This document shows, piece by piece, positions 60,247 through 64,000 of a stretch of DNA of 64,000 nt. The translations under genes and the position numbers were made by a program. Each line of letters starts with the position of its first letter. Within the stretch, counting starts at the first letter, position 1. Origin of the DNA: Moniliella sp. 'wahieum' (taxonomy: Eukaryota; Basidiomycota; Moniliellomycetes; Moniliellales; Moniliellaceae); contig RSEE01000023.1 in the NCBI GenBank assembly GCA_003971905.1, forward strand, positions 434,001 to 498,000. The letters are read 5' to 3'. The notes under the pieces were generated by a model, which ran no database searches, was not told where the DNA came from, and worked only from the letters and a program-made list of their open reading frames with translations.

Positions 60247-63200
60247 TCAGTACCAAGTCATCGCCACTGTTCCCAGAGAAAGCACATACAGTCGCGCTGC
60301 GATCCCCAAGGCCCCGAGTTCCTGGAACAGAAGTTTGGCCGCGTAGGGATGTAAACTTGCGACACCTCAGTCCGGTTTTTGCACGACCGGCACTCAAACG
60401 TTCCCTTCTTGAGGTTGGCAATCGCCGTCAGGCCACAAATGTCGCAAACGTGCAGACGGTAGGCATCGACGCATCAAACATACGTTCCTTGAGGAACGAC
60501 GCAATGCCATGCGAAATCATACAGTCCGCTCCATCTCTCCGAATCGAAGACCACCTCCGCGCGCACGACCCTCAACCGGCTGACGGGTTAGGATTTGTAC
60601 AGGCCCGCGCGCACGCGAATGGATCTTGTCATCCACCATGTGCTTGAGGCGCTGGTAGTACGTCGGGCCAGGTAGACTTGCGCCTGCAGTTTGCGGCCGG
60701 TGTGGCCATTGTACATCACCTCCAGCCCACGTTTGTGGAAACCAAGCTCACTCAGGAGCGCCGATACGGCCTCGACGGTCAGCTCGGTAAACGGCGTAGC
60801 ATCGCCCTCATTCCCCGACAGCGTGGCTACCTTGGACAAGAGGCATTCCACCAAGTGTCCAATGGTCATACGCGACGGAATGGCGTGCGGGTTGATGATA
60901 ATGTCGGGCGTGATGCCATCAGCTGAAGGGCATGTCCTCTTGCCGGTAAGTAATCCAATCGTACCTTTCTGACCGTGGCGCGAAGCAAACTTGTCACCCG
61001 TCTGGGGCACACGAGTACTGCGCACGCGCACCTTGACAAACCGCTGGCTGTGGTCGTTGCTCACGTCAAAAGCACTTGGTCCACAATCCCATTCTCTGTA
61101 CTCTTGAGCGGCGTCGACACGTCCCGTTTCGTATGCGTCGACACACGCAGCCCAAGCTCCTCGCTGTCCGTCGGCAGCGGCGCCGTCTTGCCAATGATAA
61201 TGTCACCCCCGAAACGCGAGTGCCGGGGGAAATGAGACCGTCCGAGTCAATTTGTCATACGTGCCATGCTTCATACGCAGCGTTGTCTCCCGCGTCGGCT
61301 TCTCAAACATCTCCAACTGGATCACGCCCATCTTCTTTTCCATGTCCGTATAGCAGCGGTAGTAGAGCGAGCGGAACAGACCACGGTCAATCGACGATTG
61401 GTTCATAATCACCGAGTCTCCTGGTTGTACCCCGAGTAGCACAAAATCGCCACAATCGCGTTCTGGACCAGCTGGAAGCTCACGGAAACGAAGGTGCTCC
61501 ATCGAACGCGTCGTAGCCAATGGCTTCTGGGGGTAGTAGAGGATGTTGGCCATGGTGTCCATGCGCATCTGGTAGTTGGTCAGGTACACCCCCATGGCCT
61601 GCTTGCCCATGGCTGACTGGTACGTGTTCGCGGAGATGGTTGTGGTCGGGGAAGGGGATGATACTGGCACAGATACCCAGAATCATGGCGGGATGGATCT
61701 CGCAGTGCGTCCACGTTTTGGGCGCAAAGAATTGCGTCGAGGTCAACCGAGCAGAAGGGTCCATGCCCTCCTCCGTTCCCTCGCCACCCCGACGAGCGTT
61801 GAAACCTTCGGGATCAGCGTTGTAATCGCGCGAGTTCTTCAGGTCCCAGGGGCCCATGCAGATTAGCGCTGTCTCCTCCTCGTCGGCGTCCAGGTACTCG
61901 ATCAGGCCATTCTCACCATATCCTCCCACCGGAAGGGTCTCCCTCATCGTTCATCCCGTTGTTCAACCACTCAGCATGGTACCGCTTGACCCGTAGGACC
62001 GAGTCCTCGACAATAAACAGCGGCCGTAACACGCGCCCACCGTCCGTGTAGAGTCGCAGTTCTTTCTCACGAATGTCATGCACCATGCTCACCTCGTTCG
62101 AAATCTCGTTCCGGCGACGCATCATACGCACGAAGTCCACCAGCATAGTCGGCTCGTCGTGTGTGCCGAGCCAAACGCCATTGACAAATACCTTGGTAGC
62201 GCGATTATTGGCGACTTGCATGTCTCGAGCGAAAGCAACGAGTACTCATGCAAGAATTGGACGATTGGGGACGATGCCGAACCGACCGAAATGGTCGACA
62301 TGAGACTGAGGTTCTTGACCAGACCACAGGCTTGTCCCTCGGGCGTCTCGGCGGGGCAGTTGTGGCTAACGAGGCTGTTGGCAAAGAACGAATGGTTGGC
62401 CGACTCGGTAGTGAATCAAACACCGCCTCCGGCTCCACTTCCTCCACCGACTCGATCGGGCACCAACAAACCCTTCGGCTTCAACCGCTCGCAAGCTCTG
62501 GAACTTCTCCCACGACAGGAAGTTGGTGTAGAAGAGCACCATGACCACTACGCAGCAGCGAGAGAACGCCGTCCCATGATCGAACTGGAAACTGGCTCCG
62601 TCTCGATCCGAGCACGTTTCGCAAAGTGCGCTTGCGACTTGAGGTATTGAACGGGGAGCGCACTCCGCCGCGTCTTAGCTGCACAGTAGCGATAACCCAC
62701 ATTCTTGGAACGCAACCAAGTTGCCTGCCCTTTGTGTAAGGTGCACTTCTTCTCCCTGGGGGGCAGCTTTGACCCCGACATCGGAAAGGAGGCTGCGATT
62801 GTCCAGCCAACTCCGTAACGAGAGGAGCCATGCAAGGCTTCCACCCCGCCCGAGTAGAACGCATGCGGATCGCGTCTCCTTTGGCACCAAAAATACCCGC
62901 AAGGAACTCGCGCTTGACGAGACAGGGGCGTTGAGAGCCAAGGAGGGAGGAGGGTGCCGGCATATAGCAACGAGGAAAGCCTCAGCCGCTGAGGGCAGCA
63001 GATCGGGGCTGCCCTCGATGGCGGGGAGACCGAGGGTACCAAGGTCCGAGTTGACCGCAGCAACATCAGCCGCATCGCTGAGCGTCAACCTCCGTCCCTG
63101 AACACCAGAACGAGCACCAAGCAGGCGGGCAGTAGCGAGAACCTGGGGAAGCGAGAGGTCGGTGTCGACCAAACCACATTGCGAAAGGGCCTCCACCATG

Positions 63201-64000
63201 GAGGGGGCAAGGCCAGCGAGCTGAGTGCGGCAAGACGCAAGGTAAATGGCACGGGGGGGAAGTACTTAGATTGCGGGGAAACGAGGATCATATCTGTGCC
63301 GGCCTGCAGTTGACCGACTTTGGTCCACGAGGGTGAGAGCGGGTTCTGTGCCGCACGAAGAGGATGCTCGGGAGTGGCTTTGATCACCCTTCCGTCCGTC
63401 AAAGTCACCTTAAGAAGACGCTCAGGCATCTTGCGGAACCAATGGTGGATGCCGCTCCGCTCAATCTCCAGCGACGACGGCTTGATCGTCGCCACCTCTT
63501 TGCCGTCGGACAGGTCTGCGATGCGCCCACATCCATTCCGTTGCCCAGTACCACCTCCGTATCCGCCGTGACACAAACCATACCCCAATGGGTGTTGTGC
63601 AGCTGCCGTGGCTTGGCAATCTTTCCATCTCGTCCAATCGGGGTGTTGCACCGCCGCAATGGGACAAGGTGGAGGAGAAGGTGTACCGGTTAAGCACTTG
63701 CGACACACCAGCACGTGCAGACATGAACTTTTTTTGGTCGCCCAGTTGCCCGTCGCAACAGAGTACTTTAGGCCATTGGTAATGGTCGACGCCTTGACAG
63801 CTGGGTAATGTGGAAATCCTTCTTCTCCTCCACACTTTTGGAGATGCGGTAGATATCGCGCGTAAGCTTGCGGAAAAGCATGCGGAAAAGGCCTGCCAAC
63901 AAAGGCCCAGCCATGTCGAGACGCTTCTTGCCGAAGTGGTCACGGTCATCAATTTCGCGCCGCTCGAGGGCAGTGAGTAGGAGACGATGAATCATGTACC
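60247..64000 (-). CDS. RPB2: RNA polymerase II second-largest subunit, intein-containing, 5' end beyond window
   Basis: Second-largest Pol II subunit, the core catalytic partner of Rpb1. The window opens inside the protein ([38 protein letters not shown]). After [19 protein letters not shown] an intein intervenes (63575-62359); the C-extein resumes [20 protein letters not shown]. Then follow [168 protein letters not shown] and the zinc ribbon CDICGL...CRSCKN. These match Rpb2 rather than Rpa2 or Rpc2. After [12 protein letters not shown] the last residues ([19 protein letters not shown], 60247) diverge from the usual ending, perhaps through an indel. Many single-base frame breaks occur. Confidence 0.95.
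62359..63575 (-). other. Intein in RPB2 with a LAGLIDADG-type endonuclease domain
   Basis: Self-splicing protein insert at the boundary GMV/CPAE of Rpb2. Block [14 protein letters not shown], with the nucleophilic Cys1 directly after the N-extein HNTHWGMV. Block [21 protein letters not shown], with the TxxH motif (TPEH). A central region of about 250 residues includes [14 protein letters not shown] (about 62874-62912), in the place of the first LAGLIDADG motif, and [16 protein letters not shown], resembling the GxRYCxxKxxRL segment of endonuclease domains in fungal inteins. Block [21 protein letters not shown]. Block G: VSHN, with the penultimate His and terminal Asn, followed by Cys+1 of CPAETPEG. 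The span is 1,217 nt, not a multiple of three, so at least one indel lies within; the frame changes several times between 63250 and 62420. In the first endonuclease motif the usual catalytic Asp position appears to be Lys, so cleavage activity is doubtful. Confidence 0.9.

Follow-up and report, generated by a model that had tools for sequence, protein, structure and literature searches.

The stretch of DNA analyzed here (the window) comprises 64,000 nucleotides of contig RSEE01000023.1 of Moniliella sp. 'wahieum' (contig C23 below, positions 434001-498000; the genome amounts to 69.5 Mb in 223 contigs) and carries on its minus strand the C-terminal two thirds or so of RPB2, the gene of the second subunit of RNA polymerase II (Pol II), interrupted by an insert that has the features of an intein. 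Feature positions are given in window coordinates unless stated otherwise. This part of the gene (60300..64000) was recognized from its Pfam Rpb2 domains, from the genome match to the Rpb2 protein P0012 and from a DNA match of the C-extein; it overruns the window end and extends on the contig to about 498800, and comparison of P0012 with the whole genome returned a match in pieces at contig positions 494354-498794. Rpb2 domains 3, 4, 5 and 6 are detected, each in a separate frame, and domain 3 is interrupted by the insert (in the second copy, domain positions 1-47 precede the insert and 45-68 follow it). That second copy (L001) lies on contig C8 and carries the same insert at the same residue, the two contigs being collinear over 23 kb with 93.8% identity, 552 mismatches and 919 gap columns. 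The insert, whose DNA matches C23 and C8 only, is thus present in each of the two RPB2 copies that were found. No third copy was found with C-extein DNA and Rpb2 protein, which matched these two contigs and more distant paralogues.

The insert occupies 62359..63575 (minus strand) between GMV and CPAETPEG, and translation together with the comparison of the two copies returned exactly the borders proposed in an earlier sequence-only reading of this DNA. Its 1217 nucleotides, about 405 codons, also agree with the approximately 405 foreign residues expected there; the C8 insert measures 1232 nucleotides. As translated, the N-extein ends in HNTHWGMV (63576..63599) and is followed by block A with Cys1 in CVTADTEV (63552..63575), read in the window and in the C8 copy. 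Block B with its TPEH (TxxH) motif lies at 63364..63375 (translation and alignment), and block F together with the residues down to the His-Asn end at 62359..62415, where the minus-strand translation gives 19 residues and block F contains NHSFFAN. A 21-residue stretch and a terminal SHN followed by Cys are contained in the insert, and the 12 residues that start the C-extein (62323..62358) open with this Cys+1, where the Pfam match to Rpb2 domain 3 continues. All class 1 splicing residues (Cys1, TPEH, NHSFFAN, HN and Cys+1) are in place wherever the two copies can be read, so that every splicing hallmark named in the sequence-only reading was recovered on the minus strand.

Searches with the insert, as that reading had suggested, led to intein relatives. 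A 307-residue single-frame piece of the C8 copy was compared with a database of 5.8 billion proteins, in which only relatives sharing exact words are reached and the best matches are listed; among 7995 scored proteins, 10 were retrieved with E-values up to 0.01, all with RNA polymerase second-subunit domains. They comprise the Rpb2 protein P0001 (54% identity in its intein, E = 3.7e-83), eight Coemansia proteins, two of them labelled Rpc2 (1.4e-49 for a Coemansia Rpc2 intein), and one Phlyctochytrium protein. Similarity of this order lies far outside chance. A further search from the Phlyctochytrium intein yielded 21 proteins including the query, among them Batrachochytrium Rpb2 and Rpc2 and Mycoemilia Rpb2. 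The coding sequence of the insert can be aligned end to end with the intein of P0001 and with 18 further inteins. In P0001 the frame is open through the insert and the Pfam family Intein_splicing (PF14890) is precomputed for this protein. The same family matches the two halves of the C8 insert (E = 2.8e-6 and 0.0064) and the N-terminal piece of the window insert (2e-5). Against an intein count the facts that these three matches all remain under the curated cut-off and that the middle and C-terminal pieces of the window insert gave no Pfam intein match. Searches of solved structures with P0001 and with P0010 gave only RNA polymerase chains among the best 60 of 79 and of 80 matches, respectively. 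On the evidence of its sequence, the segment is an intein in the Rpb2 of a basidiomycete.

The length of the insert is not a multiple of three and its frame is therefore broken in the assembly; in the C8 copy the frame is broken as well and can be read in two frames only, so that the need for frame correction anticipated by the sequence-only reading applies to both copies. Such breaks, together with the observation that 15/17 indel runs between the two inserts disrupt the frame, would be expected if both RPB2 copies were true pseudogenes or if the segment were an assembly chimera. Indel runs are, however, spread over exteins and insert alike (9.4 per kb in the N-extein part, 14.0 in the insert and 9.8 in the C-extein), and the neighboring gene of ribosomal protein uL2 (59059-59810, plus strand, recognized by eye) is also read over three frames. 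The frame breaks of RPB2 therefore look like indels of a noisy-read assembly and not like gene decay, and since no further RPB2 copy was found and the insert sits at the same residue in both haplotypes, in regions collinear over 23 kb, we regard a pseudogene or chimera as very improbable. A spliceosomal intron with a chance open frame is more improbable still. Gene finders might call the segment an intron, for which its length is unusual yet possible, and the sequence-only reading had itself pointed to an ordinary intron as the explanation that would overturn its own. At the level of DNA, in the C8 copy, five excisions within 60 nucleotides of the borders restore the 12-residue uninterrupted junction and none of the five has GT-AG ends; the end-to-end alignment of the coding sequence with P0001 and the 18 further inteins likewise argues against an intron.

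Rpb2 would thus be translated with the insert included, after which the N- and C-terminal splicing parts would fold together, presumably in a Hint fold. Removal would follow the class 1 route, namely an N-S shift at Cys1, transfer to Cys+1 and cyclisation of Asn, in which the penultimate His assists. GMV and CPAETPEG would thereby become joined within the fork region of the subunit. Protein splicing itself is most likely, as judged from the conserved residues.

The insertion site is RPB2-c, and the allele is therefore not new. This allele was named for Batrachochytrium in 2006 with an intein size of 488 aa, as given in a table of that paper (PMC1635734), and the database Batrachochytrium Rpb2 (P0131) has the same junctions and an intein of the same 488 aa. 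The site is also shared by the Rpb2 of Coemansia, Mycoemilia and Phlyctochytrium. Where a named fungal protein includes the two borders, the insert follows WGMV or WGLV (in Rpc2 WGML or WGMI), and its last residues, SHN, precede CPAETPEG (in Rpc2 CPADTPEG or CPSDTPEG). Alignment over the whole length, with E-values down to 3.7e-83, points to common descent with the other inteins of this site. Passages of the 2006 paper place RPB2-c in the fork domain and the intein sites at the cleft or at the Rpb1-Rpb2 interface, from which an insert must leave before the enzyme assembles (PMC1635734).

The occupation of the site in basidiomycetes was looked at with the N-extein of P0001, using the best 120 of 965 matches; the 119 others are mostly basidiomycete, with a few labelled animal or plant. 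The RPB2-c site is uninterrupted in 118/119 of them. The remaining one, Cantharellus anzutake P0054, has a model gap and lacks exactly the residues of the site (GMGQACGL); an insert may be concealed here by annotation as an intron. Inteins can be masked in gene models in this manner, and the best 120 matches leave absence from other basidiomycetes unproven.

Five of the 119 listed proteins, four of them named Tilletia, carry an insert at a different 11-residue site and have the RPB2-c site uninterrupted. The window displays the reverse pattern: the Tilletia-type site (61590..61628, minus strand, 13 residues in translation) is empty and RPB2-c is occupied. In 2023 two Rpb2-type inteins adjoining primer bRPB2-7.1R were described in Salmacisia (PMC10849329). 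The position of that primer presumably fits the Tilletia-type site, to which these inteins would then also belong. The Moniliella and Tilletia/Salmacisia inteins have gene and subphylum in common, which is what could be said for the Moniliella intein being allelic to the published Tilletiales intein with nothing new in site or origin. With insert sites that differ and each group's site empty in the other, we consider that the chance of this is negligible. No Tilletia protein appears among the 10 matches of the 307-residue search, which reaches relatives sharing exact words; the two kinds of intein were not aligned. The statement of the sequence-only reading that inteins of higher fungi lie mostly elsewhere than in RNA polymerase proved incomplete, Rpb2 inteins of basidiomycetes being already in print (passages of PMC10849329). 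RNA polymerase inteins of both Ustilaginomycotina and Agaricomycotina also appear in a table of a 2018 survey, whose passages give no sites. We found no description of an RPB2-c intein in a basidiomycete, and the supplementary tables of the 2018 survey may list one; neither was a paper found on Moniliella inteins or on Kickxellomycota RNA polymerase inteins. Of the rare or new allele that had been proposed, there remains a basidiomycete host unreported for this site in our searches, the allele itself being known from Batrachochytrium. What appears to be new is the RPB2-c site in a basidiomycete, the kinship to Coemansia and Mycoemilia inteins and the decayed endonuclease.

The host was placed with an Rpb2 extein tree of 39 proteins plus a host row of 12 pieces (1204 columns), in which it groups with P0001 (93.3% identical) and P0012 (85.2%) with a support of 100. 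This clade falls inside Ustilaginomycotina, again with a support of 100, in agreement with the basidiomycete host assumed from the letters alone. Its sister position to the other sampled Ustilaginomycotina has a support of only 63. The host Rpb2 is 78-79% identical to those of Tilletia and Thecaphora and falls outside both in the tree, so that by the measure of Rpb2 neither genus is the host; Malassezia Rpb2 is not among the best 120 of 965 matches and the comparison holds no Malassezia protein, but the small genome of that genus speaks against it as the host. In P0012 the RPB2-c site is empty.

The name of a full-length intein fits the size of the insert and not its endonuclease part, in which the acidic residues of both LAGLIDADG motifs are gone. 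Motif 1 (63095..63127, 11 residues, minus strand), located by alignment with intact relatives, has no Asp, and motif 2 (62877..62912, 12 residues, minus strand), read in the window and in C8, has Lys in place of Asp (LAGIFGAKG). P0001 has also lost both. By eye, both Asp are kept in 4/19 aligned relatives, namely Phlyctochytrium, a Coemansia aciculifera Rpc2 and two others. Among the ten matches of the 307-residue search, PF14528, which we take to be a LAGLIDADG domain, is listed for P0010 only. Judging from the loss of both acidic residues, the endonuclease looks dead. Identity between this Rpb2 and P0001 amounts to 129/155 in the splicing parts, 126/250 in the middle of the intein and 739/788 in the extein, the splicing parts being better conserved than the middle (Fisher p = 1e-11). 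Between the haplotypes, changed codons number 0 nonsynonymous and 1 synonymous among 141 in the splicing parts, 6 and 5 among 228 in the middle, and 3 and 10 among 668 in the extein pieces. Two observations weigh against the reading of the insert as a splicing intein without homing: the splicing parts evolve faster than the extein (p = 6e-5), and the nonsynonymous share across haplotypes does not differ significantly between middle and extein (Fisher p = 0.21). Taken together, we are confident that this is an intein of the RPB2-c allele that has most likely kept its ability to splice but lost its ability to home. It would now be a resident relic, probably retained since nothing short of an exact deletion would eliminate it.

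The RPB2 intein of Batrachochytrium (Bde), whose host is a chytrid, shares the site (12 residues) and the splicing blocks, with a similar start, Cys within a 12-residue stretch, and a similar 12-residue end; it is identical to the Moniliella intein at 53% (80/150) of the splicing parts and 33% (83/254) of the middle, and by eye its own LAGLIDADG Asp are also replaced (Ala, Asn). The inteins of Coemansia and Mycoemilia Rpb2 and Rpc2 (P0002-P0008, P0132-P0137), at the same site, are the nearest outside the host clade, with 63-71% identity in the splicing parts and 39-45% in the middle, and by eye one or both Asp are lost or shifted in 12/13 of them. Their hosts belong to another phylum, and several of these inteins lie in Rpc2 of RNA polymerase III (Pol III), whereas the Moniliella RPC2 copies are without insert. 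P0001 has the same site and has lost both Asp as in Moniliella, with different residues at the dead motifs; the identity of its intein is no more than 54% across the 307 aa of the search piece, and that of its Rpb2 is 93.3% (742/795). Within one genome, the Rpb2 and Rpc2 inteins of Batrachochytrium (P0130/P0131) and of Coemansia RSA 1933 (P0134/P0004) are separated by tree distances of 0.01 and 0.02, respectively, and this near-identity suggests movement of the intein from Pol II to Pol III genes or the reverse. By eye, the Mycoemilia scoparia Rpb2 P0137 (2428 aa) apparently contains three inteins, at CPAETPEG, after DDKIH and after GEMERD. P0138 and P0139, distant Rpb2-like proteins that have both LAGLIDADG Asp and whose intein lies at the corresponding site, are perhaps from giant viruses or protists, which is a guess.

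Concerning the origin of the element, the sequence-only reading had looked to a tree of extein and intein for signs of horizontal movement; the trees hint at such movement, and the approximately unbiased (AU) tests fall short of proof. In the intein tree (20 rows, 459 columns) the basidiomycete and Kickxellales inteins form one clade (99.8/100) with the chytrid inteins apart. For the whole intein, AU tests reject the basidiomycetes outside Kickxellales plus chytrids (p = 0.019) and with the chytrids (p = 0.008); with splicing columns only, grouping with the chytrids is rejected (p = 0.042) and a position outside Kickxellales plus chytrids is not (p = 0.37). Support of 86/75 for nesting the basidiomycete inteins next to C. 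javaensis was not taken as a result, because the AU test does not reject a monophyletic Kickxellales and the splicing-only tree puts C. javaensis elsewhere. Mean identities were obtained with 5/9 Kickxellales Rpb2 and 2 chytrid Rpb2. In the splicing part they are 67.4% for basidiomycete-Kickxellales, 51.8% for basidiomycete-chytrid and 52.6% for Kickxellales-chytrid pairs, and in the extein 65.5%, 67.0% and 66.2%, respectively; the difference between 67.4 and 52.6% has a 95% interval of 8.7-21.4, that between 65.5 and 66.2% one of -3.3 to 1.5. Intein/extein distance ratios are 0.94-1.14 for basidiomycete-Kickxellales, 2.03-2.39 for basidiomycete-chytrid and 1.41-1.96 for Kickxellales-chytrid pairs.

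These values can be read in two ways. In the first, the ancestor of the intein passed from the Kickxellales (Coemansia-like) side into this ustilaginomycotinan lineage after the phyla had split; we somewhat favor such an entry, which is the least certain step and lies outside the confidence expressed above in a splicing, non-homing intein. Two results weigh against a transfer: a monophyletic Kickxellales is not rejected (AU p = 0.30 for the whole intein, 0.45 for the splicing part), which leaves room for ordinary descent with losses, and the distance ratios range from 0.84 to 3.62 among the Kickxellales compared and reach 7.1 between the host and P0001, so that rates vary much. Alternatively, an RPB2-c intein was present in the ancestor of chytrids, zygomycetes and Dikarya, was lost nearly everywhere and survived here by chance. 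The host lineages branch in the order of chytrids, then Kickxellales plus basidiomycete, and the inteins follow this order, which together with the AU results speaks for vertical descent. So does the preference of the 2006 authors for ancient presence with many losses (PMC1635734). Against it, the site is uninterrupted in 118 of the 119 other proteins among the best 120 of 965, requiring many losses, and the splicing parts differ in identity (67.4 vs 52.6%) though the exteins are equally different (65.5 vs 66.2%). We consider vertical descent a real but less probable history, at roughly one chance in three. For the combined reading, namely a cross-phylum transfer into a ustilaginomycotinan ancestor at the Pol II site only, with the endonuclease lost and both RPB2 copies dependent on a splicing-only relic, the odds appear about even; the same even judgment covers its further part, that the relic was held over the time separating two species with 93% identical Rpb2.

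Elsewhere in the genome, the Pfam splicing family profile matched only the two RPB2 copies, both below cut-off, and at the sensitivity of this search no PRP8 intein was seen. Four RPC2 copies were found (on C5, C27, C3 and C61), and no insert is present at the homologous site, three of them being contiguous there and the fourth showing a short unaligned stretch only. The RPC2 copies form two pairs, with 97-98% identity within a pair and 88% between pairs, and uL2 occurs at eight near-full places on C23, C8, C2, C32, C44 and C24, two each on C23 and C8. With four copies of RPC2, eight of uL2 and a single pair of RPB2, the genome is tetraploid or hybrid in appearance, and RPB2 of the second subgenome seems to be lost or unassembled. 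Farther along the window, two transfer RNA (tRNA) genes lie within stretches of about 220 bp (48037-48259 and 50974-51196) that are 78-79% alike, each stretch matching on C8 the apparent counterpart of the other. By eye, the proteins encoded by the neighboring minus-strand open reading frames 45181-46632 and 48508-49371 resemble each other and are acidic and rich in repeats (DANDAN..., RREAE.MAQQQVV...); the pair has apparently arisen by local duplication.

In conclusion, the RPB2-c intein of the window is real; it has kept its splicing residues, its endonuclease is decayed, and its host phylum is apparently new for this site. The insert splits the WGMVCPA stretch, presumably the target of a common RPB2 primer, so that RPB2 marker sets may miss species of this kind. 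The consulted passages of the 2006 paper report no compelling horizontal movement of eukaryotic inteins and favor ancient presence with many losses (PMC1635734); in contrast to this view, the inteins of two phyla are here more alike than the Rpb2 of their hosts suggests. This likeness across phyla, together with the empty site in P0012, makes the question of transfer testable by sampling a few genera. The element of Moniliella is also an example of an intein residing in an essential gene and apparently persisting there beyond the loss of its endonuclease.

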